DNA of 64,000 nt from Salinigranum rubrum (lineage in GTDB: Archaea; Halobacteriota; Halobacteria; Halobacteriales; Haloferacaceae). A program made the position numbers and the translations under genes. A model generated the notes under the pieces. It was not told the origin of the DNA. It searched no databases and worked only from the letters and a program-made list of their open reading frames with translations. Below are positions 4,123-28,706 of this stretch, piece by piece. Numbering within the stretch: position 1 is the first letter of the stretch; each line of letters starts with the position of its first letter. The stretch is taken from assembly GCF_002906575.1 (NCBI RefSeq), contig NZ_CP026309.1:1860001-1924000 (forward strand), in the 5' to 3' direction.

Positions 4123-4132
4123 CTTTTTAAAC
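4123..4132 (+). promoter_or_regulatory. TATA box upstream of the MBL-like gene
   Basis: CTTTTTAAAC, centred about 28 bases before ATG 4156. It supports a leaderless transcript and that start codon. Confidence 0.55.
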
Positions 4133-4155
4133 GCGTCCGACCCTTGACCACGACT

Positions 4156-4881: not shown

Positions 4882-4957
4882 TTTCGGCGCGTCGACGTTC
4901 AGTCGCCGTCTCTCGGGGTTCGACACACTTTTTCGCGTCAGAGCGCCTACAGCGCAC

Positions 4958-5440: not shown

Positions 5441-5461
5441 GAGCGCGAGCGAGGAGAACGC

Positions 5462-5671
5462 CTACTCGAGATATCCGAGGTCGGCGAGCTGGTCGGTGAT
5501 CTCCTCGAACTCGGCCTCGGTCAGTTCCCCGGTCCGCTGGTGCTGGATGACGATGCTCCGGAGCAGGAACCGCACGAGGTCGCTCGTCGACGAGAAGCTC
5601 GTCCCCTCGATGGTCTCTTCGACGCGCTCGGCGAGGTCCTTCGGGATCGAAACCGTCGTGTAGTCCGTCAT
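5462..5671 (-). CDS. Ribbon-helix-helix (CopG/Arc-type) regulator
   Basis: 69 residues. An N-terminal TTVSIPKDLAERVEETIE strand-helix and the following SSTSDLVRFLLRSIV helix form a typical RHH DNA-binding unit. The C-terminal acidic tail (GELTEAEFEEITDQLADLGYLE) is common in haloarchaeal members. A TATA-like TGTAACTC lies about 27 bases upstream of ATG 5671. It may act on itself or on neighbours; no operator was identified. Confidence 0.85.
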   Translation of the reverse strand: MTDYTTVSIPKDLAERVEETIEGTSFSSTSDLVRFLLRSIVIQHQRTGELTEAEFEEITDQLADLGYLE

Positions 5672-5897
5672 CGTCGGGGGGACGGGTCGACGCGAGTTAC
5701 ACCTTGTGGACTTCGACGCGGCGGTCGTTCCCCGGTGCGCAGCGACAGCAGCCGAACGGCGAGCGCGGACGGGTGAGTCGCTCTGACGCTCCGTAAGCGT
5801 CCAGAAGCGGTCCGTCCCGCCGTCGAATCGTCCGGAATCCCGGACGGTTCGAGCGCCTTCGGGAGTTTTTCAACCGATGACCTCGTACTCGACGACA

Positions 5898-6221
5898 ATG
5901 GGAGTCAGGCCACCACAGCAGGACGGGTCCGACGCCGACCACATCGAGTTCGGCATCGCGGCGCTCGAACCCCACCTCGACGACCGAATCGACTACCCCG
6001 CCACCGCCGAGGAGGTCGTCCAGGCGGTCGGTGACGTGCAGGTGTCGTACGACGCTTCGGGCGGTACCGTCGCGCTGTCCGAGGTCCTCGAGAAGACCCC
6101 CAAACGACGGTTCGAGTCGAAGCGCGACCTGCTCGACGCGCTCCACCCGGTGTTCGAAGAGTACCGCGCCGCCGCGTCGAACAGCCTCGTCGGCAGACTC
6201 CGCGGCCTCCTCCCGTTCTGA
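5898..6221 (+). CDS. DUF5789-like small haloarchaeal protein
   Basis: 107 residues. The core YPATAEEVVQAVGDV ... ALSEVLEKTPKRRFES resembles the DUF5789/DUF2795 group, small proteins of unknown function with a helical 'PATKEEL'-type segment. A box GGGAGTTTTTC at about 5860-5870 sits roughly 30 bases before ATG 5898, so the upstream in-frame ATG at 5877 is less likely. The C-terminus (SLVGRLRGLLPF) is hydrophobic. No functional inference beyond family resemblance. Confidence 0.65.
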   Translation: MGVRPPQQDGSDADHIEFGIAALEPHLDDRIDYPATAEEVVQAVGDVQVSYDASGGTVALSEVLEKTPKRRFESKRDLLDALHPVFEEYRAAASNSLVGRLRGLLPF

Positions 6222-6283
6222 TCCCGCTTCGGCGGTGTGTTCGCGCGGCGTCGTGTGCGTCCCACCGGGTCGCTCGCTCACCC

Positions 6284-7216
6284 TCACTCGTTCGCGCGCT
6301 CGTCTTCGAGCCGGTCGAGCCGCCGCATCTGTTCCCTGTGAAGCGAGAAGATGAGGTCCGAGAGCACGCCGAACATCAGCAACTGGACGCCGAAGAGAAT
6401 GCCCGAGGCGGCGACGACCGCCATCACCTCGTGGGAGATACTTCGGGTGACCCACTCGACGCCGACCCAGATGGCGATGCCGAGGCCGATGGCGGTCGAG
6501 ACGAAGCCGACGCTGCCGAAGTAAAAGAGGGGGTTGTTCGTCTTCGCCCGGCGGTACAGTTCGAGGAGGATGATGCTCCCGTCGCGGAGCGGGCTGAGGT
6601 TCGTGTTCGACCCCGACGGGCGCGGGAGGTAGGTGATGGGGACGACAGCGGTGTCGATCCGGTGTTTCGCGCACTCGACGGCCATCTCCGTCTCGATGCC
6701 GAACCCCTGCGCGGCGAGCGTCATCCGCTCGAACGACGCGCGCGAGAAGGCCCGGTACCCCGAGAGGATGTCGCCGAAGTCGGTCCCGTGGATGAACGCG
6801 AAGGCGCGGTTGAACAGCCGGTTCCCGACGCGGTTGAGCCGCGTCATCGCCCCGTCGTGCATGTCGGCGAAGCGGTCGCCGATGACGTGTTCGTACCCCT
6901 CGTCGAGAGGGCGGAGCATCGCCTCGGCGTCCGACGGCAGGTACGTCCCGTCGCCGTCGACCATGAGGACGTACGGAGCCGAGATGTGTTCTGAGACGGC
7001 TTCCCGGACGGCCTGTCCTTTGCCGGTTCCCGACTGCGTGACGACGCGTGCGCCCGCCTCGGTGGCGACTTCTTCGGTCCGGTCCGTCGAGCCGCCGTCG
7101 ACGACGAGGACGGTCTCGAACCCCTCCTCGCGGTAGCCACGGACGACATCGCCGATGGTCTCTGCCTCGTCGAGCGTCGGCACGAGGACGCAGACGTCGT
7201 CACGCTGTGGCATCAT
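6284..7216 (-). CDS. aglJ: S-layer N-glycosylation glycosyltransferase AglJ (dolichol-phosphate GT2)
   Basis: 310 residues. GT2 domain with VLVPTLDEAETIGDVV near the start, VDGGSTDRT, the DxD-type VDGDGTYL and a DPM1/DPG-like GNRLFNRAF ... DILSGYRAFSR segment. Two C-terminal membrane helices lie at about residues 230-280. In Haloferax AglJ adds the first hexose to dolichol phosphate at the cytoplasmic face, beginning the N-glycan. It is divergent from glmU across a 144-base spacer. A TTATTTAAA box about 22 bases upstream supports a start at 7216, with 7213 the alternative. Its place at the edge of a locus ending in aglM-aglB supports the symbol. Confidence 0.85.
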   Translation of the reverse strand: MMPQRDDVCVLVPTLDEAETIGDVVRGYREEGFETVLVVDGGSTDRTEEVATEAGARVVTQSGTGKGQAVREAVSEHISAPYVLMVDGDGTYLPSDAEAMLRPLDEGYEHVIGDRFADMHDGAMTRLNRVGNRLFNRAFAFIHGTDFGDILSGYRAFSRASFERMTLAAQGFGIETEMAVECAKHRIDTAVVPITYLPRPSGSNTNLSPLRDGSIILLELYRRAKTNNPLFYFGSVGFVSTAIGLGIAIWVGVEWVTRSISHEVMAVVAASGILFGVQLLMFGVLSDLIFSLHREQMRRLDRLEDERANE

Positions 7217-7360
7217 CGGCGCTAACGGGGATGGTTTAAATAACACTTCCGTTCTCGCCGCTTCCGGGCCGCCGCTGTGGCCGATAAACAGTCGGTTAAC
7301 TGGTCGATGTTGTGGTAGGCGGAGAATATACAAGGACGTCAGACCCATCTGGAAGAGAGT

Positions 7361-8518
7361 ATGTATGCAGTCATTCTCGCTGCTGGGGAGGGGATGCGTC
7401 TCAGACCCCTCACCCGCACGAGACCGAAACCAATGGTCCCCATTGCCAACCGACCGCTCCTCGAGTACGTCCTCGAAGCGGTCGCCGACGCGGGGATCGA
7501 AGACGTGATCCTCGTCGTTGGATACAAACGCGAGCGGATACAGAGCCACTTCGGCGACGGCAACGACTGGGAGGTCGACATCACCTACGCCGTCCAGGAG
7601 AAACAGCTCGGTACCGGCCACGCGGTCGCCCAGGCCGAGCCGTACATCGACGGCGAGTTCATCGTTCTGAACGGCGACCGCATCATCGACAGCTCGCTCG
7701 TCTCGCACATCGCCGACGACGCGACGCCGGCACCCGCCGTCGCCATCAGGCGTTCGGAGACGCCGAGCGCGTACGGCGTCGTCAGCCTCGACGGCGACCG
7801 GGTCGTCTCGGTCGACGAAAAGCCCACGGGCCGGACACTGACGAGCGACCTCATCAACGCGGGCGTCTACAAGTTCACGCCGAGCGTCTTCGACGCCATC
7901 AGGGAGACCGATACCGTCGGCGAGTCCCCCATCACGGCCGCGCTCGACACCCTCGCCGCGGAGGGCTCGGTCCAGGCCGTCCGGTACGGCGGCCGCTGGC
8001 TCGACGTCTCGGTCCCGTGGAACCTCCTCTCGGTGAACAGCAGCGTCCTCGACGAGACGGGCAGTCACGTCGACACCGCCGCCGTCGTCCACGGCTCCGC
8101 CACCATCGCCGGACCGGTCGACATCGACGAGGACGTCCACGTTCACCCGAACGCGACGCTCCTCGCGGGGACGAGTCTCGGCGCGAACGCCGAAATCGGT
8201 GCCAACGCCGTCATCTCGAACACGGTCGTTCTCCCGGACGCAACCGTCGAGGCCGGCGCGGTGTTGCACGACTGCATCGTCGGCTCCAACAGCGTCGTCG
8301 GCGCGAACGCTACCGCCTCCGGCGGGGACGCCACCGTCGCCCTCGCCGGCGAACTGTACGAATCGGCCCGCCTGGGCGCGCTCATCGGTGACAACGTCGA
8401 CATCGGCGGCGGCGTCACCCTGGCTCCGGGTACCATCATCGGCAACGACGCGACCGTCCACGAGGGAACGACCCTCGACGGCCACGTCGAGGACGGCGCG
8501 ACCATCAGGAGGGGATAA
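7361..8518 (+). CDS. glmU: Bifunctional sugar-1-phosphate nucleotidylyltransferase/acetyltransferase (GlmU-type)
   Basis: 385 residues. The nucleotidyltransferase domain opens with LAAGEGMRLRPLTRTRPKPM, carries LNGDRIID at the metal site and ends near residue 230. A left-handed beta-helix of hexapeptide repeats follows (HVHPNATLLAGTSLGANAEIG onward), the acetyltransferase half. The predicted pathway role is acetylation of glucosamine-1-phosphate and formation of UDP-GlcNAc, which fits glmS starting only two bases downstream. A GAATATACAAG box lies about 33 bases upstream of ATG 7361. A UTP-glucose-1-phosphate uridylyltransferase (AglF-like) is the main alternative. Confidence 0.85.
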   Translation: MYAVILAAGEGMRLRPLTRTRPKPMVPIANRPLLEYVLEAVADAGIEDVILVVGYKRERIQSHFGDGNDWEVDITYAVQEKQLGTGHAVAQAEPYIDGEFIVLNGDRIIDSSLVSHIADDATPAPAVAIRRSETPSAYGVVSLDGDRVVSVDEKPTGRTLTSDLINAGVYKFTPSVFDAIRETDTVGESPITAALDTLAAEGSVQAVRYGGRWLDVSVPWNLLSVNSSVLDETGSHVDTAAVVHGSATIAGPVDIDEDVHVHPNATLLAGTSLGANAEIGANAVISNTVVLPDATVEAGAVLHDCIVGSNSVVGANATASGGDATVALAGELYESARLGALIGDNVDIGGGVTLAPGTIIGNDATVHEGTTLDGHVEDGATIRRG

Positions 8519-8520
8519 TC

Positions 8521-10323
8521 ATGTGTGGAATCATCGGATACGCGGGCGAGGACCGGGCACTGCCGGTTCTCCGGACCGGACTGGAGAACCTCGAGTACCG
8601 CGGCTACGACTCCGTCGGGGTCGCACTCCGCGGTCACGAGGGGCTCCGCCTGTTCAAGCAGGCGGGGCGCATCAAGGACCTCTCGCTCCCCGAGGACGAC
8701 GACTCGGTCGTCGGCATCGGCCACACGCGCTGGAGCACGCACGGCGAACCGACGGACGCGAACGCGCACCCACACACCGACTGTACGGGCACCGTTGCGG
8801 TCGTCCACAACGGCATCATCGAGAACTACGACAGCCTCCGCGAGGAGCTCTCTGACCACCCGTTCACCTCGGAGACGGACACGGAGGTCGTCCCGCACCT
8901 CATCGAGGAGTACCTCGCGGAGGGTGACGACCTGCCGACGGCCGTCGACCGGACCCTCGAACGACTCGAGGGGACGTTCGCGCTCGGCATCGTCAGCACC
9001 GAGTTCGACGGCATCGTCGCCGCGCGGCAGGACAGCCCGCTCGTCATCGGCCACGGGGAGCGGGGCGCGTTCATCGCCAGCGACGTCACCGCCTTCCTCG
9101 AACACACCCGCGAGGTGACGTACGTCGAAGACGGCGACGTCGCCGTCCTCTCGAACGGCGGCGTCGAAATCCGCAACGGCGGCGAGGTCGTCGAGCGCCC
9201 CCGCGAGCACGTCGAGTGGGAGGCCGAGGCCGCCGAGAAGAGCGGCTACGAACACTACATGCTCAAGGAGATCCACGAGCAGCCCACGGCCCTCCGCCAG
9301 ACCCTCTCGGGGCGGATCGACGAACTCAACGGAGAGGTCGACCTCGACATCGACCTCCCGAAGGAGTACCTCAACTCGCTGGAGGAGGTGACGTTCGTCG
9401 CCTGCGGGACCTCCTACCACGCGGGGCTGTACGCCGCACAGCTCGTCGAGTCACTGGCCGACGTCCGCGCCTCCGCCGAAATCGCCAGCGAGTACGAGTT
9501 CGACGGCGGGCGTGACCCCTGGCGGACGCTCGTCGTCCCGGTGACCCAGAGCGGCGAGACCGCCGACACCCTCTCGGCGCTCCGCCGGGCGAAACGGGCC
9601 GGCGCGCGGAGCCTCGCCGTGACGAACACGCTCGGCAGCACCGTGACCCGCGAGGCCGACGAGACGGTGTTCATCCGCGCCGGCCCCGAAATCGGCGTCG
9701 CGGCCACGAAGACGTTCGTCTCGCAGGTCGCGACGCTCGCGCTCCTCTCGGTCGCGTTCGCCCGCGCCCGCGGTGAGCTGTCGACGACGGACGCCATCGA
9801 GTTCCTCGGACACGTCCGGCAGCTTCCGGGCGCGGTCCAGAAGGTGCTCGACGAGGAGGCGGCGTTCAAGGAGGCCGCGACCGAGTACGCCGACGGCGAG
9901 GCGTTCTTCTTCATCGGTCGAAAGCTGGGCTACCCGGTCGCGCTGGAGGGCGCGCTCAAACTGAAGGAGATCGCGTACGTCCACGCCGAGGGCTTCGCCG
10001 CGGGCGAGTTGAAGCACGGCCCGCTCGCGCTCGTCACACCCAAGTCACCGGTACTCGCGGTCCTCACGCAGGGGTCGAGCCCCGAGGCGACGCTCAACAA
10101 CGTGAAGGAGGTCGAATCGCGCGGCGCGCCCGTCCTCGGATGTACCTCCCTCCGCGACGCCGAGAAGTTCCTCGACGTCACCTTCGACATGCCCGAACTG
10201 GGCGCCCTCTCGCCGCTCATCGCGAACGTCTGCTTCCAGTTGTTCGCGTACCACGTGGCGAAGCTGAAGGGACGGTCGATCGACAAGCCGCGAAACCTCG
10301 CGAAGAGCGTGACGGTGGAGTGA
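8521..10323 (+). CDS. glmS: Glutamine--fructose-6-phosphate aminotransferase (isomerizing)
   Basis: 600 residues, the usual GlmS length. After Met, Cys2 (MCGIIGYAG) is the N-terminal nucleophile of the class II glutaminase domain, followed by YRGYDSVG and HTRWSTHG. Two SIS domains follow: ACGTSYHAGLYAAQ near residue 300 and FFIGRKLGYPVALEGALKLKE near 460, then the C-terminal DKPRNLAKSVTVE. It makes glucosamine-6-phosphate, feeding UDP-GlcNAc for glycan synthesis. The ribosome-binding GGAGGGG overlaps the end of glmU, so the two genes are translationally linked. Confidence 0.96.
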   Translation: MCGIIGYAGEDRALPVLRTGLENLEYRGYDSVGVALRGHEGLRLFKQAGRIKDLSLPEDDDSVVGIGHTRWSTHGEPTDANAHPHTDCTGTVAVVHNGIIENYDSLREELSDHPFTSETDTEVVPHLIEEYLAEGDDLPTAVDRTLERLEGTFALGIVSTEFDGIVAARQDSPLVIGHGERGAFIASDVTAFLEHTREVTYVEDGDVAVLSNGGVEIRNGGEVVERPREHVEWEAEAAEKSGYEHYMLKEIHEQPTALRQTLSGRIDELNGEVDLDIDLPKEYLNSLEEVTFVACGTSYHAGLYAAQLVESLADVRASAEIASEYEFDGGRDPWRTLVVPVTQSGETADTLSALRRAKRAGARSLAVTNTLGSTVTREADETVFIRAGPEIGVAATKTFVSQVATLALLSVAFARARGELSTTDAIEFLGHVRQLPGAVQKVLDEEAAFKEAATEYADGEAFFFIGRKLGYPVALEGALKLKEIAYVHAEGFAAGELKHGPLALVTPKSPVLAVLTQGSSPEATLNNVKEVESRGAPVLGCTSLRDAEKFLDVTFDMPELGALSPLIANVCFQLFAYHVAKLKGRSIDKPRNLAKSVTVE

Positions 10324-10392: not shown

Positions 10393-11421
10393 ATGCTCTC
10401 GGACAAGAACGTGTTGTTGACCGGCGGTGGCGGCTCCGTCGGTCGGGAGCTCTCCGTACGCCTGCTCGACTCTGATCTGAACGTCCTTCGGATACTCGAC
10501 AACAACGAACCCAACCTCTCTCGTCTCGCCTCGACCCTCGACGACGACCGGTGTCGGTTCCTCTCGGGAGACATCCGAGACCGCGACCGCCTCGACCGCG
10601 CCCTCGAAGACATCGACGTCGTCGTCCACACTGCAGCGATGAAACACGTCGACGTCTGCGAGTACAACCCGTTCGAGGCGATCAAGACGAACGTCCTGGG
10701 GATACAGAACGTCATCGACGCCGCCATCGACACGACAGTCGAGCGGATGGTGTTCACGAGCAGCGACAAGGCGGTCAACCCGGCCAACACGATGGGGACC
10801 ACGAAGCTCCTCGGCGAGAAGCTCATCACGGCCGGCAACAAGCACGCTGGGCGGTCCGATCTCCGCCTCGCCTCGGTGCGGTTCGGAAACGTCGTCGACT
10901 CCTCCGGCTCCGTCATCCCCCACTTCCGTGAGCAGATCCGCGAGGGAGGACCCGTGACGCTCACCGACCGCCGGATGCGGCGGTTCTTTCTCACCTTCGA
11001 CGACGTGTACGACCTCGTGACCGCCGCGATGACCCACACGGAGGGCGGCGAGATATTCATGAAGAAGATGCCAGCGATCCGTATCGAGGACCTGGCGAGG
11101 GTCCTCATCGACGAACTCGCCCCGAGGTTCGGACACGACCCCGGTGCTGTCGAAGTCGAACTCACCGGTCCGCGGCTCGGTGAGACGTTTCACGAGGAGA
11201 TGATGACCGGACGCGAGAAGCAACGAACCGTCGAGACGGAGTCGCTCTACGCCGTTCTCCCCGAAACGACGGACCAGGACGGGTACCTCGAACACGACGG
11301 GCTCGCGGGGTTCACCGAGGCCACTGACGTCGTCCAGTCGACGGAGGAGGCAGCGGTCCTCTCGCCCGGGGAGATCGCTTCGTTCCTCGAACAGACCGGC
11401 GTGCTAGAGGTGGACGAATGA
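10393..11421 (+). CDS. CapD/PseB-type UDP-GlcNAc 4,6-dehydratase
   Basis: 342-residue extended SDR. LTGGGGSVGREL binds the nucleotide, HTAAMKHVDVCEYNP and SSDKAVNPANTMGTTK follow. The MxxxK in place of YxxxK is typical of the FlaA1/CapD/PseB dehydratases. It lacks the N-terminal membrane domain of large CapD proteins. Such enzymes make the 4-keto-6-deoxy intermediate used for pseudaminic, legionaminic or bacillosamine-type sugars. It starts 69 bases after glmS and overlaps the next gene by four bases (ATGA), so the pair is translationally coupled. The exact stereochemistry and product are not readable. Confidence 0.85.
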   Translation: MLSDKNVLLTGGGGSVGRELSVRLLDSDLNVLRILDNNEPNLSRLASTLDDDRCRFLSGDIRDRDRLDRALEDIDVVVHTAAMKHVDVCEYNPFEAIKTNVLGIQNVIDAAIDTTVERMVFTSSDKAVNPANTMGTTKLLGEKLITAGNKHAGRSDLRLASVRFGNVVDSSGSVIPHFREQIREGGPVTLTDRRMRRFFLTFDDVYDLVTAAMTHTEGGEIFMKKMPAIRIEDLARVLIDELAPRFGHDPGAVEVELTGPRLGETFHEEMMTGREKQRTVETESLYAVLPETTDQDGYLEHDGLAGFTEATDVVQSTEEAAVLSPGEIASFLEQTGVLEVDE

Positions 11422-12359
11422 GCGATCCGAAGACGGTCGCCGTGACCGGCGCCGGGGGCTTCATCGGGCGTTGGGTCGTCGCTGAACTCCTCGACCGAGG
11501 CCACGTGGTACGAGGACTGGACGACCTCTCCAACGGGTCACGGGAGAACGTCGCCGCCTTCGTCGACGACCCGGACTTCGAACTGCTCGTGGGGAGCGTC
11601 CGGGAGCGGGGGGACGTCGACGCGCTCTTCGACGCCGACGTCGACGCCTGTATCCACCTCGCGGCCGAAATCGACGTTCAAGAGAGCCTCGACGACCCAC
11701 AGTCGCACTTCGAAACGAACGTCAGGGGGACACAGGTGGTGCTCGAAGCGTGCCGTGCTGACGACGTCCGCCTCGGCCTCGTGGGCACCTGCATGGTGTA
11801 CGACATGGCGGATACGAGCGAGGGAATCGACGAAGAGCACCCGGTGAAGCCGGCCTCGCCGTACGCAGGCTCGAAGCTCGCCGCGGAGAACCTCGCCGAG
11901 TCGTACTATCACGGGTACGACCTCCCCGTGACGATCCTTCGCCCGTTCAACACGTACGGCCCCTTCCAGAAGACGGGAATGGCCGGCGGGGTCGTCTCCA
12001 TCTTCACGAGCCGCGACCTCGCCGGCGAGGATCTGAAGGTGTTCGGCGACGGCACGCAGACCCGCGACTTGCTGTACGTGACCGACTGTGCCCGGTTCAT
12101 CGTCGAGGCGACCTTCTCGGACGCGGCAGTCGGTGAGGTCATCAACGCGGGAACGGGCCGCGATATCAGCATCAACGACCTGGCCCGGGTCGTCGCCTCG
12201 CCGGGGACCGAGATCCGGAACGTCGAGCACCACCACCCCCAAAGCGAGGTCCAGAAACTCCTGTGTGACCCGACGAAAGCGGAGGAACTCCTCGGGTGGA
12301 CCCCCGAGGTGTCGCTCGAAGAGGGTATCGGGGAACTCCGCGAGTGGCTGCAGTCGTGA
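11418..12359 (+). CDS. NAD-dependent epimerase/dehydratase (extended SDR)
   Basis: 313 residues. TGAGGFIGRWVVAELLDRGH is the Rossmann NAD site, HLAAEIDVQESLDDP and the catalytic PYAGSKLAAENLAESYY (Y-x-x-x-K) are present, as are RPFNTYGPFQ and the C-terminal AEELLGWTPEVSLEEGI. It resembles sugar-nucleotide 4-epimerases/dehydratases, with substrate unknown. The four-base overlap with the dehydratase upstream suggests that it acts on the product of that enzyme. The last gene of the glmU-glmS-dehydratase-SDR run, it converges on the NeuB-type gene. Confidence 0.85.
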   Translation: MSDPKTVAVTGAGGFIGRWVVAELLDRGHVVRGLDDLSNGSRENVAAFVDDPDFELLVGSVRERGDVDALFDADVDACIHLAAEIDVQESLDDPQSHFETNVRGTQVVLEACRADDVRLGLVGTCMVYDMADTSEGIDEEHPVKPASPYAGSKLAAENLAESYYHGYDLPVTILRPFNTYGPFQKTGMAGGVVSIFTSRDLAGEDLKVFGDGTQTRDLLYVTDCARFIVEATFSDAAVGEVINAGTGRDISINDLARVVASPGTEIRNVEHHHPQSEVQKLLCDPTKAEELLGWTPEVSLEEGIGELREWLQS

Positions 12360-12517: not shown

Positions 12518-13575
12518 TCAGACGTCTTCCCACGTGATCGCGTGGCCCCGTTCGATATCGCGTCTCGCTTCCCGGCCGACGACCACGTCCTTGTAACGCG
12601 GTGTCAGCGCGTCCTCGGGGCGGGGCGGAGGGCGGTCAGTTTTCGTTCCGTGATCTCCTCGCCGGCCTCGATATCCGCGGCGGCCCTGAGTGACCGACGC
12701 TGAAGCACTGCGGGCGTCTCTTCCTCTTCGTACACCCGCTTCGTCGTCTCGCCCAACGCGTCGTTGATCCGTCTGACCTCGGTGACCAGGGTGCCGAACT
12801 CGTCGGGAGTGAGTGAGTGCGGATGGTCCGGTCCGTCCCTGGTGCTGTCGTCAGTGAAGTGTTTCTCGATGACGCACCCCCCACGGCTGACCGCGCCCAG
12901 AGAGACACCCAGTCCCGGCGTGTGATCCGAGTATCCCACGGGGACGCCGAACGAGTCTCTCAGCCCTTCCATCGCACGGATGTGCGACGACTCGGCTTTC
13001 GAGGGGTAGTTGGTCACACACTGTAGGATGATGATCTCGGAGTTTCCCGTCGACCGAACGGCTCTGACGGCCTCTTCGATCTCTCCGAGCGTGCTCGCGC
13101 CCGTCGAGAGGATGATCGGCTTGCCCTTCTCGGCCGTGTATTCGAGGTAGTCGAGCCAGGTTATGTCGCCGGAGCCGATCTTGTACACGGAGACGAACTC
13201 GTCGAGAACGTCGACGGCTTCCTTGTCGTATGGGGTGCAGAGAAAATCGATGTCGGCGTTCTCACAGTGGTCCGCCAGTTCGGGTATCCACTCCCGGGGG
13301 AGTTCGGCGTCCCGGTACACCTCGTACACCGGTTTGTCCCACTCCTGTTGAAATCCCTCCTTCAGCCCGTCGAACCCCTGTTTGGAGAGGATCTTGTCCG
13401 CTTTGAACGCCTGGAACTTGGCCGCGTCGGCGCCGCACTCGGCGGCCAGTTCGATGAGTTTCTTCGCCCGTCGCTTCGAGCCATCGAAGTTCGCTCCGAT
13501 CTCGGCGATCACGTACGTATCGTCCCGATGGCCGAGTTCCCGGTCGCCGATACGGACTGATTCTCGTTCGTCCAT
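12518..13575 (-). CDS. NeuB/SpsE-type nonulosonic acid synthase (frame change before the SAF domain)
   Basis: Phosphoenolpyruvate-dependent synthase of sialic-acid-like sugars. The barrel shows VIAEIGANFDG, AAKFQAFKADKI, FLCTPYD, KIGSGDITW, LQCVTNYP, GYSDHTPG and VIEKHFTDD, the family landmarks. In the first frame it stops at 12604 just after LRPAP. One more C in the run at 12617-12620 continues as LRPAPEDALTPRYKDVVVGR and onward to a stop at 12518, which completes the antifreeze-like SAF domain. The span is one base short of a multiple of three. ATG 13575 follows a GGTTTTATCG box by about 30 bases. The product (legionaminic, pseudaminic, neuraminic or other) cannot be told. Confidence 0.85.
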
Positions 13576-13768
13576 ACGTGTTGCTGTACTGCTCAACTCG
13601 ATAAAACCACCGAGTAGAACCCCGCGAACGAGGGGCCCACCCGGCGTATGTCGACGGTTCCTCGCGCGTGACGAGTGCGGACGCTCACCCCGCCCGACCG
13701 CAGTACGGGCCCGTCCCTCGACGAGACGACTTCTCGGCGAAGACCGATTCACAGCAGGCTGAGCCGGT

Positions 13769-14514
13769 CTACTTCACGTTCTTCTGTTTGACGTGGGCGT
13801 TGAGTCGCTGGAGGTCTTCGTCGTCTATCAGTTTGATCGCCGCGTCAACCGGAAGGATGTCGTCGTACTCGACCTGTGCGTATATCCGCCGAAAGAGTTC
13901 GTAGTCGTCCGCTTCGTCGAGGGTGATCCGGAGCTCTCCCCGGTCTCGCATGTACGGCTCGTCGAAGACCTGGTCTGCCGTCAGGGAGACGGTCTCGAAC
14001 TCCTGTGGGTTCTCCCGATAGTACGGTGTCACGTGCTCTCGGTGATGTGGTTCGGTCGATTCCTGATACACCCGCTCGAAGCTCTCCATGGTGAACACCT
14101 CGACGTCGAAGCCACGCGGAAACGTTCGCTCGAACTTGTTCGCACAGTAGTCTCCACCGCTCTCGACGAGCCGAGCCACCGCCGAATCGATTACCTCCGG
14201 GGGATGAGCGGGCAGTCCGCCGTGATGCGCACGACGACATCGGCTTCGGCACCCTTCGCTGCGTGGTACATCCTGTCGAGTACGTCCGTCTCGCTCCCCC
14301 GGAACACAGTCGCGCCAGCCCGCTCGGCGTACCGCGCGATGATGTCGTCGGCGCCGTTCTCCGACGTCGCGACGACGACTTCGTCGATAGACGTAGCCGC
14401 GGCGGTCCGTCGGACGACGTGTTCCAGGACGTGTCGTCCATCCAGCGGTAACATCACTTTACCGGGAAGCCGGCTCGAACCCATCCGGGCCTGAATTACT
14501 GCGACGACGTTCAT
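13769..14514 (-). CDS. SpsF-type cytidylyltransferase (frame change at two fifths)
   Basis: CMP-sugar synthetase/SpsF family, expected to activate the nonulosonate made by the adjacent NeuB-type enzyme. The N-terminus VAVIQARMGSSRLPGKVM carries the CTP loop, followed by RITADCPLIP. A stop then appears at 14191. With one more C in the run at 14199-14203 the frame reads CPLIPPEVIDSAVARLVESG and continues to 13769 (DYCANKFERTFPRGFDVE, HREHVTPYY, LRITLDEADDY). Restored length 248 residues, usual for the family. The order on this strand is SpsF then NeuB with 193 bases between them, so they may have separate promoters. Confidence 0.85.
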
Positions 14515-14700: not shown

Positions 14701-15351
14701 ATGGAACGCGACCCAGAGGACCTGTGGGACGGTGAGTTCGGGGAGGAGTACACCGAGCGAAACGACCTCTCCGTCCAAGAGGCCAACGAGATATCCGAAC
14801 AGCGGTTCGGCGTGAGTCGAACGGAGCGGATGGAGCGTTTTCTCGGCAGCGTCGACCGAGACGCCAGGATCCTGGAGGTGGGCACGAACATCGGAACGCA
14901 GCTCAAATGTCTCGAATCGATCGGATTCGAGAACCTGTACGGGATAGACATACAGAAGAACGCCGTTCAGAAGGCTCATCGAACCAGGCCCGAACTGAAC
15001 ATCATCGAGGGGAGTGCCGACGACATTCCGTTCAAAGACGACTTCTTCGATCTGGTGTTTACCTCTGTCGTCCTCATACACATCCCGCCCGAACGAATCG
15101 AGACCGTACTCGACGAGGTCGTCCGTTGTACGTCGGAGTGGGTGTACGGGTACGAGTACTTCGCCGAGGAGTACACCGAGGTCCAGTACCGCGGTCACGA
15201 CGAACTGCTCTGGAAGACGGATTTCCCCTCCCTGTATCTGGAACGGTTCGACCTCGAACTGGTCGAGAAGGAGTTCTTCGAGTATCAGACCGACGAGTAC
15301 GACAACGACACCGTCGACGTCGAGTTCCTCCTCAGAACGCCAGAGGCGTGA
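14701..15351 (+). CDS. Nonulosonate-associated SAM-dependent methyltransferase
   Basis: 216 residues. Class I methyltransferase core: ILEVGTNIGTQLKCL (motif I), LYGIDIQKNAVQKA, GSADDIPFKDDFFDLVF and VLIHIPPE. The N-terminus EDLWDGEFGEEYTERND closely recalls the 'pseudaminic acid biosynthesis-associated methylase' group, whose members sit beside NeuB-type genes. It probably methylates a sugar of the surface glycan. Position beside NeuB/SpsF supports this; the methyl acceptor is unknown. It stands alone on the plus strand within a mostly minus-strand cluster. Confidence 0.8.
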   Translation: MERDPEDLWDGEFGEEYTERNDLSVQEANEISEQRFGVSRTERMERFLGSVDRDARILEVGTNIGTQLKCLESIGFENLYGIDIQKNAVQKAHRTRPELNIIEGSADDIPFKDDFFDLVFTSVVLIHIPPERIETVLDEVVRCTSEWVYGYEYFAEEYTEVQYRGHDELLWKTDFPSLYLERFDLELVEKEFFEYQTDEYDNDTVDVEFLLRTPEA

Positions 15352-15512: not shown

Positions 15513-16349
15513 TTATCGGGGGTTGCTCGCGTCGATTTTTTCGAATACGTCGGTCAGGCTCGGCTGTTTGTCCCCCAGGTTGCCGTCGAGGTACTCGTCG
15601 ACGATGTCGTTGTCGTACAGGTCGTAGATCACACGGAGGTGGTGTGGCTCGAAGTCGCTGGACAGGAAGAGTTTTCCAGTTCTCGTTTGCTCCTCGACCG
15701 GGAGCGTCCCCTGTTCGGCCAAGTACTCCAGAATCGTCACCGTCTCTTCGGCGAACCGGACAACGACATCCGCCGCCGTCTCGTGGACACCTCGGCCCCG
15801 TTTCAGTTCCGGCACCGAGTGATGGATGATCCCCCCGGCATCCGGTTCCGGGATGATCTGATGGAGCGTTCCGCCCGCGAACTGTGGCTGGAGATTGTAG
15901 AACGGCCAGAACAGCGTCGCCGAGCCCTTGTACCACGGCGACAGTCCGAGGTGGAAGTTGAGGCGCCAGTCCGGAAGTTCGGATAGGACGGGCTCTAAGA
16001 CGAGTCCGGTGCCGAAGATGAGGCAGGCGTCAGCATCGACGTCCCGCACGAACTCCGCAACGCGCTCCGAGTTGAGTTCGTCCCTGTCGACGAACAGCGT
16101 CGGGGCAACGTCCTCGTACGCCGTCGGGGACCTGTCGCCGTACGTGGCCCGTTCGACCGTCTCGCGTCGCTCGAAGTGGTGAGTGAACAGTTCCCTGTCG
16201 TGCTCCGGCCATCCGGAGGGTGGGTCCGGGAGGGTGTCCTCTCGTCGCATCGAGACGACACCTCCGACCTCCAGTACGTCGGAGTCGATAACCTGCTGAT
16301 GTACGTAGACGTGGCGCGCGTGGCTTCCCGAGAACAGAATCAGTTTCAT
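15513..16349 (-). CDS. Formyltransferase-family protein (probable sugar N-formyltransferase)
   Basis: 278 residues. The formyl-transfer fold is marked by RLNFHLGLSPWYKG, giving Asn131 and His133 of the N-x-H catalytic pair. Asp170 in EPDAGGIIHH is the third catalytic residue of the family. It is not a tRNA formyltransferase: archaea do not formylate initiator tRNA, and it lies among glycan genes. By analogy with enzymes that formylate amino-sugars of surface glycans, it probably uses N10-formyl-tetrahydrofolate. Its ATG overlaps the stop of the DUF4910 hydrolase by four bases, so the two are translated together and likely act on the same substrate. Confidence 0.8.
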   Translation of the reverse strand: MKLILFSGSHARHVYVHQQVIDSDVLEVGGVVSMRREDTLPDPPSGWPEHDRELFTHHFERRETVERATYGDRSPTAYEDVAPTLFVDRDELNSERVAEFVRDVDADACLIFGTGLVLEPVLSELPDWRLNFHLGLSPWYKGSATLFWPFYNLQPQFAGGTLHQIIPEPDAGGIIHHSVPELKRGRGVHETAADVVVRFAEETVTILEYLAEQGTLPVEEQTRTGKLFLSSDFEPHHLRVIYDLYDNDIVDEYLDGNLGDKQPSLTDVFEKIDASNPR

Positions 16350-17698
16350 GCAGAAGCCTCCAGCAGTTCTGCGTCGACGAGTTCGCTCGCTGCGCGGTGG
16401 AGCGTTCGAACCGACACGCCGGACCGTTTCGCGATTCGAAACAGCGAGGTGCTGCCGTCACACGAGAACATCAACCAGTTGATCGCGTCGAACACGTCAC
16501 CGGATTTCGCCCCCTCGTCAGCCAACTGGTACTCGAACTCCTTGTGGTCCGTCTCGTCGAGATACCCGGGTTGTTGCTGTTTTCCGCCCGTCGTCGGATA
16601 CAGGTCGTGTCTGTCGAGTTTGAACTCGCAGTGTGGGTCGACCCGCTCGTACACGCGGTTCATCTCCAGGAGGCCGATGGCCCACAGGTACCGTTGCAGG
16701 GTTTCGAGGAGCGCTTCAGCGGAGATAAACGAGAGGTCGTCCTTCGAGGTGTGATACTCCTTGTACTCGTAGTATTTGTCCTTCGCGATGGTCCCCGTGG
16801 GGATGCGAAACCCGGGTGAACTGTACTGTCGCTCGTCGCTGCCGGTCGGGACGAACTCGTACTCGTCGTACTCGTCGTCGGAGAGTGCCCAGCGAGCGGC
16901 TTGGTCGACTGGGTGGTCGTGCTCGAAAGACGCCTTGTAGTCGAACGTTCCCGGCCCCGCAACGGTCGTTATCACGTACCCCCCGTTCACGTTCTTCATC
17001 GGCGCTTCGTGCGTACTGAGGTAACTGATGGAGCCGATAGTTTCCGGGACGATGATCAACCGGTACGAGTGGTAGGTGTCGCGTTGTCGGAGTTGCTCGA
17101 ACAGCAGCGTTGCCAGGACGACGCCGGAGAGGTTGTCGTTTGCGAGCGATGGATGGCAACAGTACGTCGAGAGGATGTACTCCTCGTCGCTTTCCCCCTC
17201 GATTCTCGCGTCGGCGTAGGTGAGTTCTCCCTCGGGGTCCAGAGTACTGTCGATGAACACCTCGTACGTGTCGTCTTCGTCCATCGATTCGAGCGTGTCG
17301 TGGCGCATGCAGAACCCCCAATCTCGATCGTAGTAGGTCGTTCTGTAGGGGATTGCGTCGGGCATGCTCGGTAGCGTGTGCAGATGGTCTTTCAACTCGT
17401 CGAACGTGAGCGTCGTCTCGACCGGCACACTGTAGCTGACGACGTGTAAGTTGTTCTCTGCGATGTCGACGATCCGCTCCCCGTCGCTGTTTTCGATGTA
17501 CGCGTCCTCGATGTTCCACTCCGGCGGGACTTCCCAGTCGTAGACCTGAGTGCCGGACGGAACGGACTGGACGTCTAGCGGCGTGATCTCCGAAAGCCGC
17601 TCGAGCGTTCTCCGGACGCCGTTGCCGGTCACGCTCCGTGTTATCGGATACAACTCTCGCAAGAGTGAATTCACAGAGTCCTCATTCAAATAAGTCAT
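16346..17698 (-). CDS. DUF4910/DUF2172 M28-like zinc hydrolase with C-terminal winged helix
   Basis: 450 residues. An inserted DUF2172-like N-terminal region (about 45-150) is followed by a zinc-peptidase-like core. CCHPSLANDNLSG gives His182 and Asp188, PETIGS gives Glu219, TGSDERQYSSPG gives Asp288 and YHTSKDD gives His316. These fit the ligand set of M28 enzymes, so it is predicted to be active. The last 65 residues (AKSGDVFDAINWL ... SLFRIAKRSGVSVRTLHRAA) form a helix-turn-helix-like tail. Usually called aminopeptidase-like, it recurs in polysaccharide loci. Overlap with a formyltransferase suggests amide hydrolysis on an amino-sugar. ATG 17698 is preferred over GTG 17707. Confidence 0.8.
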   Translation of the reverse strand: MTYLNEDSVNSLLRELYPITRSVTGNGVRRTLERLSEITPLDVQSVPSGTQVYDWEVPPEWNIEDAYIENSDGERIVDIAENNLHVVSYSVPVETTLTFDELKDHLHTLPSMPDAIPYRTTYYDRDWGFCMRHDTLESMDEDDTYEVFIDSTLDPEGELTYADARIEGESDEEYILSTYCCHPSLANDNLSGVVLATLLFEQLRQRDTYHSYRLIIVPETIGSISYLSTHEAPMKNVNGGYVITTVAGPGTFDYKASFEHDHPVDQAARWALSDDEYDEYEFVPTGSDERQYSSPGFRIPTGTIAKDKYYEYKEYHTSKDDLSFISAEALLETLQRYLWAIGLLEMNRVYERVDPHCEFKLDRHDLYPTTGGKQQQPGYLDETDHKEFEYQLADEGAKSGDVFDAINWLMFSCDGSTSLFRIAKRSGVSVRTLHRAASELVDAELLEASA

Positions 17699-17860: not shown

Positions 17861-18550
17861 TCACTCGCGGAGACGTTCGAACGTCGACCTGATGTCGAAG
17901 AGGATCGTGCGCCAGAGTGCCCGGAGAATCACGAGATTCCCTCGTAAGCTACCGAACCGGGAGTCGTCTTCGCGTTGCTCGATTGTGATTCCGAGTTGCT
18001 CGACGGCGTATCCACGTCGCTCGGCGACCAACAGGAGATACGTTCCGACCGAATTGTACGTGTCGAAGGACCCGATGTCGTCGTACACGGCAACGTCGTA
18101 CGCCTTGAATCCCGACAGCGGGTCTGTCACCCCCAGCCGCCACTTCGCGTACAGCGCGAACAACCGCTCCGCCACTCGTGCGTACTCCGGACGGCACCCG
18201 ACGACGATGGCCGCCCTGCCGGCCAGCACCGGCTCGACTATCCGTTCGATATCCGCCGGGTCGTGCTGTCCGTCGCCGTCGAAGGTCACGATGACGTCCG
18301 CACCGTGTTCCGCTGCGTAGGCGACCCCGTCGCTCAGCGATCGGTCGTACCCCTTGTTCACCTCGTGAACGAGCACCGTCGCCCCGGCGGCGCTGGCTAG
18401 CTCACCGGTGTCGTCCGCCGAACCGTCGTCGACCACGACCACCTCGTCGGCGACCGCCGCCACGTCGGAGACGACTCCTCCGATCGTGTTCGCCTCGTTG
18501 TACGCCGGGATGACTACTGATACCGTCCGATCGCTCGGTGTCTCCGACAT
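17861..18550 (-). CDS. GT2 glycosyltransferase, dolichol-phosphate sugar synthase type
   Basis: 229 residues without obvious C-terminal membrane helices. VSVVIPAYNEANTIGGVVSDV opens the GT-A fold, VVDDGSADDT and TFDGDGQHDPADI (D-x-D) follow, then the DPMS-like DPLSGFKAYD. It resembles enzymes that load a sugar from a nucleotide onto dolichol phosphate. In this locus it may make the lipid-linked donor for a terminal sugar added outside the cell. Start ATG 18550 overlaps the stop of the RmlD-like gene (TGATG), so the two are coupled. Confidence 0.82.
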   Translation of the reverse strand: MSETPSDRTVSVVIPAYNEANTIGGVVSDVAAVADEVVVVDDGSADDTGELASAAGATVLVHEVNKGYDRSLSDGVAYAAEHGADVIVTFDGDGQHDPADIERIVEPVLAGRAAIVVGCRPEYARVAERLFALYAKWRLGVTDPLSGFKAYDVAVYDDIGSFDTYNSVGTYLLLVAERRGYAVEQLGITIEQREDDSRFGSLRGNLVILRALWRTILFDIRSTFERLRE

Positions 18551-19425
18551 CACTGGCGTTCCCGTCTCATTCGTTCGAGTCCGGTTCGGATGTCCGGCAT
18601 TCGTCTCCCGAGGACGGTCTCCGCTCGTGCCGTGTCGAGCGAGAGGTCGTTTCCTCGGGGGGCATCGAGGTCGACTGACGACATCTCGACCGGAGCGACC
18701 GACGACGAATCGAGTTCGAACACCTCGGCGACCTCTCGGGCGAACTCGTACTTGCTCATCCGGTCGCGGCTGCCGAGATGCACGACCCCGGTGTCGTCCC
18801 GTACGAGCAGGGCTTCCAGAGAGGTAGCCAGATCACCTGCAAACAGCGGCGTGAAGAACGCGTCCTCGAAGCCCGGTAGCCGGTCACCGGATGCTAACGT
18901 CTCGATCATCCACTCCGCCAGACTGCCCCGACCCGCCCCGTTCCACCCGAAGAAGTTCGTTCTGGCGACCACCGTGTCGTCGTTGAGGCGGGCCGCGGTC
19001 CGCTCCCCGTCGAGCTTCGTCTCCCCGTACACGTTGACAGGGTCGGGAGAGTCCGTCTCGGCCCACCAACCCCTGCTCCCGTCGAAGACCGAATCGGTCG
19101 AGACGTACAGCAGACGAGCGCCGGTCTCTGCTGCCAGCGACGCGACGTGCTCGGTCGCGTCGACGTTCAGCCGGACGGCGCGGCCCGGATTCCGCTCACA
19201 CTCGTCGACGTCTGTGAGTGCCGCACAGTGAACGAGGGCGTCCGGGTCGTACTCGAGGAGGCGGGGAAAGGGCGGATTCAGGAGGTCAACCTTGACCGTC
19301 TCGAAGTCGAGCGATGAGACGTCCGCAGTGAGGTACGTTCCGAGTACGTCGTAGGTGTCGGCCAGACGTGTGCCGACGTAGCGCCCGAGAAACCCACTGC
19401 ACCCGGTGAGGAGAATCCTGTTCAC
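18550..19425 (-). CDS. RmlD-like dTDP-4-dehydrorhamnose reductase family SDR
   Basis: 291 residues. LLTGCSGFLGRYVGTRLADTY is the cofactor loop, VHCAALTDVDECERNP and VNVYGETKLDGER (Y-x-x-x-K) are typical of RmlD, as are STDSVFDG and DLATSLEALL. RmlA, B and C partners are absent nearby, so rhamnose synthesis cannot be claimed. It may reduce another 4-keto sugar nucleotide. GTG 19425 is chosen because a GATTATAAC box lies about 30 bases upstream and the Rossmann motif begins right after it. Confidence 0.8.
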   Translation of the reverse strand: MNRILLTGCSGFLGRYVGTRLADTYDVLGTYLTADVSSLDFETVKVDLLNPPFPRLLEYDPDALVHCAALTDVDECERNPGRAVRLNVDATEHVASLAAETGARLLYVSTDSVFDGSRGWWAETDSPDPVNVYGETKLDGERTAARLNDDTVVARTNFFGWNGAGRGSLAEWMIETLASGDRLPGFEDAFFTPLFAGDLATSLEALLVRDDTGVVHLGSRDRMSKYEFAREVAEVFELDSSSVAPVEMSSVDLDAPRGNDLSLDTARAETVLGRRMPDIRTGLERMRRERQ

Positions 19426-20570: not shown

Positions 20571-21986
20571 TCAGAGTCCGACCGGGATGACGACGCGCAT
20601 CTTGTCCCGAACGCGGGTCGACAACAGGAGTACCACCGCCGAGTAGACGGCCGCCCCGACGAAGACGAGCGCGGCGGTCGCGTAATGGCTGTACGGCGGG
20701 ACAACGGACCGGACCGCGAAGACGGTCACCGCCATGACACCGCTCGCGACGAGCTGTCTCCCGAACTCCCCGTAGGGGAGCTGAACCCTCCCGACGAGGT
20801 CGGTCAGGTAGTAGTATCCGAGGACCAGCGTGGTCGCGGCCGCGACTGCAGTTCCGATCGCCGCACCGAACCAGCCGATGAGCGGGATGAGGAGTGCGTT
20901 CAGCCCGATGTTCGAGACGATGAGGACGAGGTTGATACGGAAGGCGACGTCCGGTCGGTCGACTCCGTTGATGACGCCCACGAACTGCGACCCGAACGAC
21001 GAGATTACCCGAGCGACGATGAGGATGAGGAGGATTCCCACCCCCGTGTCGAACTCGCCGCCGTAGATCCGAAGCACCCGCTCTCCGATCAGCGCGGCAC
21101 CGAGCAGCCCGGGAAACGCGAACAGCCCGGAGAACACGAGGCCGTCTTCGAGCATCTCTCTGACCTGGTCGAACTCCCCGCGCTCGGCGAGTTGGCTCAC
21201 CTCGGGGAAGATGGCGGCCTGAATCGATCCCGCGACCATCACCAGGATGCCGGCGAGGTTCCAGGAGACCTGATAAATCGCGATGAGCGACGTGCCGACG
21301 AAGAACTTGAGCAGGATGACGTCGACCGCCGAGCCAGCGACCTGTGCCTTGATGCTCCCGAGCCACGAGTAGCGCACGTAGTCGACGATGTTCCGAATCT
21401 CCGCCCTCGTGGGCATCCGTGGGACAACGTCGTACAGGGCGAACCCGAGGACGACGACGAGAACCGACGCGGCACCGTAGCCGAACAACGCACCCGCCAG
21501 CCCCCATCCGAGGGTCAAGAGCACGACCTGCAGTCCGACGCGGAGCGCGTGTTCGACGAAGACGAGCAGTCCGGCGTAGCTGACCTTGAACTGCCCGCTG
21601 AGTCCCCCCGTCACGGCGGGAACCGCCAGATGCACCACGGCCACGAAGACGATGAGCGTCAGTTCGGACACCCCCGTGTACCGAACGATCTGTTCGTGAA
21701 ACAGGGCGAGACCAACCGTCACGACGGCGATGGCACCACCGGTCAGCAACAGTCCCGCCCCGAGGTACGACCCCTTCTGGTCGGACTCGCTGAGACGCTT
21801 CGTGATCCCTCCCGAGATCGCGTTCGACGGAATCGACAGCCAGTACACCAGCGACAGGACGACGATGTACGTGCCGTATTGCTCCGCTCCGAGCGTCCGG
21901 GTCAGATAGAGCGTCCCGAAGAACCCGACCACAGAGACGCCGACGCGGGAGAGAAAGTGGACGACGCTGGACTTCGCCGGCCTCAT
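20571..21986 (-). CDS. Polysaccharide/lipid-linked oligosaccharide flippase (MATE/MOP family)
   Basis: 471 residues, strongly hydrophobic, with about 12-14 predicted membrane helices. The N-terminus SSVVHFLSRVGVSVVGFFG and LTRTLGAEQYGTYIVVLSLV matches the Wzx/RfbX-like flippases. It is expected to move a lipid-linked glycan or dolichol-phosphate sugar across the membrane, the role proposed for AglR in Haloferax. It is divergent from a GT2 gene across 176 bases. Substrate specificity cannot be read from sequence. Confidence 0.88.
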   Translation of the reverse strand: MRPAKSSVVHFLSRVGVSVVGFFGTLYLTRTLGAEQYGTYIVVLSLVYWLSIPSNAISGGITKRLSESDQKGSYLGAGLLLTGGAIAVVTVGLALFHEQIVRYTGVSELTLIVFVAVVHLAVPAVTGGLSGQFKVSYAGLLVFVEHALRVGLQVVLLTLGWGLAGALFGYGAASVLVVVLGFALYDVVPRMPTRAEIRNIVDYVRYSWLGSIKAQVAGSAVDVILLKFFVGTSLIAIYQVSWNLAGILVMVAGSIQAAIFPEVSQLAERGEFDQVREMLEDGLVFSGLFAFPGLLGAALIGERVLRIYGGEFDTGVGILLILIVARVISSFGSQFVGVINGVDRPDVAFRINLVLIVSNIGLNALLIPLIGWFGAAIGTAVAAATTLVLGYYYLTDLVGRVQLPYGEFGRQLVASGVMAVTVFAVRSVVPPYSHYATAALVFVGAAVYSAVVLLLSTRVRDKMRVVIPVGL

Positions 21987-27664: not shown

Positions 27665-28588
27665 TCACAACCGTCGAGTGACGACCCCGTACACGTAGCC
27701 GAGGCCGACGACTGCGGTGAGCAGGCCCAGGGACAGCAGTTGTACGGCGTCCGTCGAGCGACGTTCACGGACCACGTCCCCGACTCGGTCGGGGACGAAC
27801 TCGACCAGCAACTGCTTCAGGAAGTCCCCTTCCTCGCCCCCGTCCTCCTCAGGCAACACGTCCGCCATCACCCGCTTCGAGTACCCCTGCCAGAACGCGC
27901 GTTTTACCAACCACCCTGGTTTCGTCCGGTAGTCGAACACCTTGTGCTCGACCACCGCGTCGGGGTCGTACCACACGCCCTCGCCGTAGCGCTGGCGCAC
28001 CCGCGCGGCGAACTCCGTCTCCTCGCCCTGGAGGTGCTTCTCGCCGAAGCGACCCAGGTTCGGCTCGAACCCGCCCAGTTCCTCGAACACCTCTCTTCGA
28101 AAGGAGATGTTCGACCCGAACGTGTTTCGGACCTCGCACTCCTCGGTCGGGAACCCTCTGTGCGTGACGCCCACCAGCCAGTAGAACTCCTCGGGGAGGA
28201 ACGTGGGCTTCCCCGCGACCCACCGTCCGGTCATCCGGCCGCCGGCGGCGACAGCGTCGTGTCGTCGATAGAGAGAGACGAGCCGTTCGACCCACTCGGG
28301 ATGGGCGACGGCGTCGTCGTCGAGGAAGGCGACGACGTCGCCGGCGGCGCGCTCTATCCCCTCGTTTCGGCTCGCCGACAGTCCCAGGTTCTCGTCGTTG
28401 CAGTGGAGCACGACGTCGTCGTGGCTCTCGTAGCGGTCGCGGATCCGCTCGCAGAGCGACTCGTCGCCGTCGACGACGACGACGACCTCGACGTCGTCGT
28501 ACGTCCCCGCGAGGACGCTGTTGACGGCGTCGACGAGGTGGTCGAAGACGTCGGGCGAGTACGCGCAGATGACGACGCTTACCTTCAC
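27665..28588 (-). CDS. AglG/AglE-like GT2 glycosyltransferase with C-terminal membrane segment
   Basis: 307 residues. VSVVICAYSPDVFDHLVDAVN, VVVVVDGDESLCERI and AFLDDDAVAHPEWV (metal site) mark the GT-A fold. FGSNISFRREVFEELGGFEPNLG and LQGEETEFAARV are typical of the halophile AglG/AglE group, which transfers hexuronic acids in N-glycan assembly. A hydrophobic C-terminus (LLSLGLLTAVVGLGYVYGVV) anchors it. It is divergent from aglM, which makes UDP-glucuronate, supporting glucuronosyl transfer. GTG 28588 is chosen because a CCTATTTCC box lies about 27 bases upstream; ATG 28663 lies beyond that box. Confidence 0.8.
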   Translation of the reverse strand: MKVSVVICAYSPDVFDHLVDAVNSVLAGTYDDVEVVVVVDGDESLCERIRDRYESHDDVVLHCNDENLGLSASRNEGIERAAGDVVAFLDDDAVAHPEWVERLVSLYRRHDAVAAGGRMTGRWVAGKPTFLPEEFYWLVGVTHRGFPTEECEVRNTFGSNISFRREVFEELGGFEPNLGRFGEKHLQGEETEFAARVRQRYGEGVWYDPDAVVEHKVFDYRTKPGWLVKRAFWQGYSKRVMADVLPEEDGGEEGDFLKQLLVEFVPDRVGDVVRERRSTDAVQLLSLGLLTAVVGLGYVYGVVTRRL

Positions 28589-28672
28589 CGGCGGGGGTAT
28601 TCGACCCGGGGAAATAGGTCTTCTCGTCTCGGAGTCGTCGAGCGGGACAGACCGTGGTGGCATTCCTCACAC

Positions 28673-28681
28673 CGTCTTTTT
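28673..28681 (+). promoter_or_regulatory. TATA-like box of aglM
   Basis: CGTCTTTTTG lies about 28-30 bases before ATG 28707, consistent with a leaderless transcript. Confidence 0.5.
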
Positions 28682-28706
28682 GCCGCCGCCCGACATTCAG
28701 ACAGTC

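Follow-up and report, generated by a model that had tools for sequence, protein, structure and literature searches.

A DUF4910 protein gene overlapping a formyltransferase gene in the N-glycosylation locus of Salinigranum rubrum: a candidate acyl-exchange unit for a nonulosonic acid

We analyzed a stretch of 64,000 nucleotides (the window) from the genome of Salinigranum rubrum (G000), an assembly of 4.97 Mb that is 98% complete. The following features of the window were annotated, with positions counted from its first letter.

7361-8518, plus strand: archaeal GlmU-type nucleotidyl/acetyltransferase, UDP-GlcNAc supply (TIGR03992, 310 bits, cutoff 292)
8521-10323, plus strand: GlmS, glucosamine-6-phosphate synthase (TIGR01135, 751 bits)
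10393-11421, plus strand: sugar-nucleotide dehydratase (PF02719), with a PseB-like match that is below cutoff
11418-12359, plus strand: SDR-type sugar-nucleotide dehydratase/epimerase
12604-13752, minus strand: NeuB-family nonulosonate synthase (PF03102, 5e-84; homologous part from about 13518)
13769-14514, minus strand: SpsF/NeuA-like cytidylyltransferase, a CMP-sugar synthetase (PF02348 on 14191-14514)
14701-15351, plus strand: methyltransferase, pseudaminic-acid-biosynthesis-associated methylase (TIGR03587, 175 bits, cutoff 112)
15513-16349, minus strand: formyltransferase (FMT), 278 aa, with N131/H133/D170
16346-16349, minus strand: stop/start overlap from the DUF4910 gene to the FMT gene, bases ATGA, read from the sequence
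16346-17698, minus strand: DUF4910/DUF2172/HTH_47 protein, 450 aa from the ATG, a proposed N-acyl-sugar deacylase
17861-18553, minus strand: family 2 glycosyltransferase (PF00535)
20571-21986, minus strand: polysaccharide flippase-like protein (PF01943)
28521-30011, plus strand: UDP-glucose/GDP-mannose dehydrogenase, AglM-like (PF03721/PF00984/PF03720)
30159-33404, plus strand: AglB oligosaccharyltransferase (PF02516, PF22627, PF18079)

Since GlmU, GlmS, the dehydratases, NeuB, SpsF, the methylase, glycosyltransferases, flippase, dehydrogenase, and AglB are all present, the locus is, by its gene content, a haloarchaeal N-glycosylation (aglB) locus with a branch for nonulosonic acid (NulO, a sialic-acid-like sugar). 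The genome has only 1 NeuB. Both NeuB and the CMP-sugar synthetase were identified by family match, and each is frameshifted as sequenced, with a single-base shift in a C-rich run near 12610 affecting the C-terminal SAF end of NeuB and another in a C-rich run near 14185 splitting the synthetase, the second half of which lies in another frame. With these 2 genes frameshifted in the assembly, the pathway may be off in S. rubrum. A module that does not work in S. rubrum, within a decaying locus, is an unlikely reading, and one compatible with the function proposed below: the frameshifts in C-rich runs point toward it, as does a DUF4910 gene that is frameshifted too in the haloarchaeon G349, but the DUF4910 and FMT genes of S. 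rubrum are intact and conserved, relatives carry intact copies, and mistakes in the assembly or contingency switching could account for the frameshifts.

No convincing PLP sugar aminotransferase of the legionaminic/pseudaminic acid (5,7-diamino NulO) pathway was found when the DegT family was searched in this 98% complete genome. The best match to PF01041 (PseC/LegC) was a partial one of 42.8 bits over about 100 residues, against more than 380 bits for the matches in 6 comparison genomes.

The first-pass annotation had reported that the stop of the DUF4910 gene overlaps the start of the FMT gene, and the 4 shared bases, ATGA, were confirmed in the sequence. Overlaps of 4 bases are common in compact operons, and we rejected this one as proof by itself; its conservation across loci, described below, is needed for the argument. 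The FMT protein scored 21.9 bits against PF00551, below the gathering cutoff of 26.1, while 2 haloarchaeal relatives passed it (L289, 68.2 bits; L290, 63.7 bits). ArnA and PurN were among its phmmer matches, and its AlphaFold2 model, superposed on the ArnA transformylase domain (Z 18.4, rmsd 2.7, 195 residues), has a clear formyltransferase fold. The triad N131/H133/D170 was invariant in the S. rubrum FMT and 10 relatives, and this held in 2 alignments.

The DUF4910 open reading frame stays open as far as a GTG at 17707. Its protein matched 3 Pfam families above their gathering cutoffs, namely PF16254 (2e-82, 276 bits, cutoff 26.6), PF09940 DUF2172 (1e-38, 132 bits, cutoff 27), and PF16221 HTH_47 (4e-9, 36 bits, cutoff 27.1). 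A phmmer search matched it to PDB entry 3k9t (E 4.5e-110), and its AlphaFold model (mean pLDDT 82.9) aligned with this structure over its full length (Z 42.9, rmsd 2.9, 405 residues). The model also aligned with the M28 aminopeptidase BSAP (Z 26.2, rmsd 3.6, 320 residues), and glutaminyl cyclases were among its further fold relatives. As modeled, DUF4910 is an M28-fold protein.

The metal site is conserved. In an alignment of 78 relatives, the metal-binding histidines H182 and H316 were kept in 78 and 77 sequences, respectively, E219 in 70, and both E289 and D320 in 77; position 188 was D in 30 and N in 48, the N form being accompanied by E at 189. The M28 catalytic pair is replaced. Following the residue correspondence of Das et al. 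2014 (PMC4000134), the catalytic Asp of the HxD motif corresponds to S184 (S in 63 of 78 relatives) and the general-base Glu to P218 (P in 77 of 78), and the same authors described this loss across the DUF4910 family and a single Zn in 3k9t, compared with the two co-catalytic zinc ions expected of an M28 peptidase. Thus, H182, D188, E219, and H316 of DUF4910 and N131, H133, and D170 of FMT all lie where the first-pass annotation had placed them, and its description of both active sites as intact stands for the invariant FMT triad; for DUF4910 it was overstated, given the substitutions at S184 and P218. By sequence, the textbook peptidase mechanism is unavailable to this protein, and a hydrolase of this family must use other residues. 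The M28 fold is what speaks for a peptidase acting on the glycoprotein. This reading was rejected as very improbable: the catalytic residues are lost, the genomic context of DUF4910 is sugar synthesis, and the published mutant of a relative, Cj1295, is altered in its glycan and not in a polypeptide.

Hitchen et al. 2010 knocked out and restored Cj1295 in Campylobacter jejuni (PMC3068675). Flagellin carried Pse5(dimethylglyceroyl)7Ac with Cj1295 and Pse5Ac7Ac without it, and the authors proposed cleavage of the C5 acetamido group by Cj1295, which would make room for a different acyl group (PMC3068675). Cj1295 has been described as a DUF2172/putative M28 protein (PMC6321876). It resembles the S. 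rubrum DUF4910 in its family by this published annotation, in its NulO locus, and in a C5 N-acyl swap, there of pseudaminic acid (PMC3068675). It differs in its acyltransferase neighbor, which is AAC(3)-like, in the group added, which is 2,3-di-O-methylglyceroyl and not formyl, and in the sugar, which belongs to a flagellin O-glycan and not to an archaeal N-glycan. Among the Campylobacterota, we found PseB-DegT-DUF4910 loci consistent with that of Cj1295, with DUF4910 proteins 36-39% identical to the S. rubrum protein, tracts of 9 G near the 5' end of the DUF4910 gene, and, in most of them, an AAC(3)-like gene next.

The protein of 3k9t, CA_C2195 of Clostridium acetobutylicum, is about 42-44% identical to the S. 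rubrum protein by structural alignment (Z 42.9) and shares with it a NulO-type gene neighborhood, which as published is without a formyltransferase (PMC4000134). Das et al. 2014 inferred a sugar role for the family, favoring transacylation over deacylation (PMC4000134). The claim that the DUF4910 family was otherwise unexplained therefore fell, given the C5 de-acetylation proposed in PMC3068675 and the deacylation and transacylation discussed in PMC4000134. None of the papers that we found gives a measured activity for any DUF4910 protein.

We searched for DUF4910 in about 1,500 genomes and counted matches over the Pfam cutoff by group. The protein was identified in 6 of 391 genomes of Halobacteria and 52 of 200 of Campylobacterota, and in 6 of 245, 13 of 247, and 28 of 349 genomes of the groups around G416, G411, and G415, respectively, with weak matches contributing to some of the numbers for the G416 and G411 groups. 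We then examined 83 cellular DUF4910 loci, mostly of 10-20 kb. Within 9 kb of DUF4910, an AAC(3)-like acyltransferase was identified in 34 loci, NeuB in 26, DegT in 22, and an AMP-ligase in 22, and no acyltransferase was recognized in 31 loci, some of which are cut by contig ends. An adjacent acyltransferase on the same strand (AAC3, FemAB-like, GNAT, or FMT) was found for 29 of 83 DUF4910 genes, including the doubtful locus L206, versus 9 of 166 other genes, pooled from 8 other pathway gene classes. This corresponds to an odds ratio of 9.4 with p 4e-9, a value that overstates independence because the loci are related to one another.

FMT is a minority partner in this set, with a close FMT in 5 of the 83 cellular loci compared with 34 for the AAC(3)-like gene. 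FMT-fold calls amounted to 15 of 83. The profile behind them drifted as its rounds went on, and the calls in L153, L163, L173, L189, and L206, which come from the later rounds, are doubtful. FMT as the general partner of DUF4910 was accordingly rejected, the AAC(3)-like gene being commoner even against the FMT-fold count. Another conserved arrangement, NeuB-DUF4910-FemAB/GNAT-like protein-radical SAM (SPASM) protein, was observed in L161, L002, L201, L162, L177, and L178 and suggests that the NulO bears an acyl or aminoacyl group of an unusual kind. DUF4910 also occurs outside NulO loci: L154, L160, L183, L185, and L188 combine it with a PIG-L-like deacetylase and with a nucleotidyltransferase, SDR, C-methyltransferase, and/or RmlC-like genes, and they lack NeuB.

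The DUF4910-FMT association recurs in other glycan loci, and neither of the contrary outcomes named in the first-pass annotation, a lack of this association or a hydrolase confined to peptides, was encountered. All direct DUF4910-FMT junctions read NTGA. They were identified in 3 haloarchaea (S. rubrum, G387 in L028, and G349 in L031), 2 Pseudomonadota (G1236 in L205 and G1438 in L207), and 2 phage types (contigs L250 and L258), mostly beside NeuB/NeuA-type genes, and a recurrence in archaea, bacteria, and phages is more than chance. A close FMT (E <1e-150) was found in exactly 3 of the 391 Halobacteria genomes, all of them among the 6 with DUF4910 (p about 2e-6), and all 3 of these close FMT genes overlap DUF4910. 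In G349, the DUF4910 gene (L031:9139-10490) is frameshifted and the FMT intact. In L207, the pair stands alone between unrelated genes. The L250 contig encodes GT-DUF4910-FMT-NeuB-NeuA-FkbM methyltransferase (L250:5251-10758) amid tailed-phage genes (tail tube, helicase, and SbcC/D), a NulO cassette that is carried by a phage and predicted to include a formyl step. Viral contigs L258-L260 have the order DUF4910-FMT-NeuA, and L262 has FMT-NeuA-DUF4910-NeuB in one operon. A quick tree did not support the idea that FMT coupling arose just once within DUF4910, as it required at least 2 changes and placed L207 away from the S. rubrum clade; L258 and L262 are long branches on that tree. A search of the literature that left subscription journals mostly outside found no link between DUF4910 and a formyltransferase.

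A different hydrolase takes the place of DUF4910 in related operons. Haloarchaeal relatives of the FMT (E about 1e-37) were identified in genomes G117 and G072 (loci L289 and L290), in neither of which a DUF4910 match was found. In both loci, a polysaccharide deacetylase gene (PF01522, 60.2 bits each) overlaps the FMT gene by 4 bases, and its product carries the TFDDG and HSxTH motifs. Two viral contigs, L263 and L264, encode NeuB, FMT, a CE4-profile match overlapping FMT, and then NeuA. The TFDDG motif was found in both of these and the second CE4 motif (HSxTH) in L264 only, where a PseB-like call falls on the CE4 gene stretch. NulO genes lie near the CE4-FMT pair in 3 of these 4 loci, none being seen near L290. 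These pairs share with S. rubrum the broad FMT family and the kind of overlap and differ in the hydrolase, which has the CE4 (NodB) fold; in a quick FMT tree, the CE4-coupled proteins branch next to the DUF4910-coupled group and not within it. Of the comparative evidence, this substitution of DUF4910 by a family of known amide hydrolases argues most strongly for removal of an N-acyl group by DUF4910.

The CE4 loci also bear on what is removed. Das et al. discussed transacylation (PMC4000134), the peptidase catalytic pair is missing, and glutaminyl cyclases are among the fold relatives, all of which would suit a DUF4910 that works by transacylation or takes off some other group, such as an amino-acyl or other protecting amide, with FMT acting on the exposed amine and no free acetate released. 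We regard this as improbable, because CE4 deacetylases replacing DUF4910 beside FMT and a Cj1295 mutant that loses the C5 acetyl-to-acyl switch both favor plain N-acetyl removal.

The coupling rule is not absolute, as several viral FMT genes have neither partner. Viral contigs L251-L257 and L261 encode an FMT without any recognized deacylase. Among these, L252, L253, L255, L254, and L261 (about 3600-9000) have an FMT without DUF4910 or CE4, some with a PseB-like dehydratase overlapping FMT. To our knowledge, the known sugar N-formyltransferases (PseJ, ArnA, and others) formylate amines made by aminotransferases. The S. rubrum FMT shares their formyltransferase fold and N/H/D triad and differs in being coupled to a deacylase candidate. 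It might nonetheless act like PseJ on an aminotransferase-made amine, with DUF4910 serving a structural purpose, exerting regulation by way of its winged-helix domain, or taking part in another sugar step. For this reading there are solved structures of PseJ-type formyltransferases, the viral contigs with FMT and neither DUF4910 nor CE4, and an FMT-fold gene between PseG and NeuB in L163 (a call by the drifted profile). It leaves the strict overlap and the CE4 replacement unexplained, and without a convincing DegT aminotransferase in the S. rubrum genome we disfavor it there as quite improbable.

We consider it probable that DUF4910 removes the C5 N-acetyl group of a NulO and that FMT then formylates the resulting amine. 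The C5 nitrogen of NulO comes from GlcNAc/ManNAc and arrives N-acetylated, so formylation there requires that the acetyl group be removed first. With 1 NeuB and no convincing DegT aminotransferase, this GlcNAc-derived nitrogen is the likely site of formylation. DUF4910 and FMT would thus work together as two enzymes that exchange the acyl group of a sialic-acid-like NulO destined for the N-glycan. DUF4910, as a single-metal M28-fold enzyme, would cleave the N-acetyl at C5, and FMT would attach to the amine so exposed a formyl group taken from N10-formyl-tetrahydrofolate, yielding a 5-N-formyl NulO. The exchange would most likely follow the NeuB step, with the free or CMP-activated sugar as substrate, given that NeuB-type synthases normally need an N-acetyl substrate and that the Campylobacter sugar with its exchanged group was found in CMP-activated form.

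The conversion of an N-acetyl into an N-formyl sugar had been suggested in the first-pass annotation, and it is the direction best supported by the conserved coupling, the CE4 replacement of DUF4910 in other FMT operons, and the Cj1295 genetics; as a reaction, it would need residues other than those of M28. The haloarchaeal co-occurrence of the two genes, the acyltransferases adjoining DUF4910 in 29 of 83 loci, and an aglB setting like that of Halorubrum sp. PV6 also speak for it. Counting against it are the loss of the M28 pair, the 31 of 83 loci in which no acyltransferase was recognized, the viral FMT genes without a deacylase, the frameshifts in NeuB and the CMP-sugar synthetase, and a related cluster without DUF4910. 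The last is that of Halorubrum sp. PV6, in which the N-glycan ends in 5-N-formyl-legionaminic acid (PMC6137143). Its cluster resembles that of S. rubrum as a haloarchaeal aglB locus with NeuB, a CMP-sugar synthetase, and a formyltransferase, and differs in having a LegC aminotransferase and NeuC, with no DUF4910 listed and the formyltransferase being putative (PMC6137143). For the DUF4910 family, acyl exchange is a rediscovery of the proposal of Hitchen et al. 2010 for Cj1295, extended here to formyl. New here are the recurring NTGA overlap, the haloarchaeal co-occurrence, the CE4 replacement, and C5 as the likely site; compared with the known kind, the group is formyl and the genes are archaeal and phage-borne.

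More broadly, at a little under an even chance, DUF4910 may be a sugar N-de-acylase of a novel structural type, with an M28 fold lacking the peptidase pair and with one metal, that provides an interchangeable opening step exposing the C5 amine of NulO. A locus-dependent partner (formyltransferase, AAC(3)-like, or FemAB-like) would then add the new group, and the step would be replaceable by CE4 and carried by phages. If the proposed acyl exchange is right, a widespread family whose function is unknown, and which includes the phase-variable flagellar gene Cj1295, would gain a reaction, it would be explained how sugars come to bear a group other than acetyl on the nitrogen derived from GlcNAc, and the loss of textbook M28 catalytic residues would mark a change of substrate and not a loss of activity. 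The minimal two-gene cassette of L207 and the four-gene phage cassette of L250 are both directly assayable.

Among mobile elements, 42 relatives of DUF4910 and none of FMT were found in plasmid records, and no relatives of either in named phage records. Two unusual gene arrangements were also observed. In L030 (17265-18452), an acyl-carrier-protein domain is fused to a formyltransferase-like domain in a gene that overlaps an AAC(3)-like gene, which in turn adjoins a DUF4910 fragment, and viral contig L283 (7359-9182) has an apparent AAC(3)-DUF4910 fusion, judged by its N-terminal sequence only.
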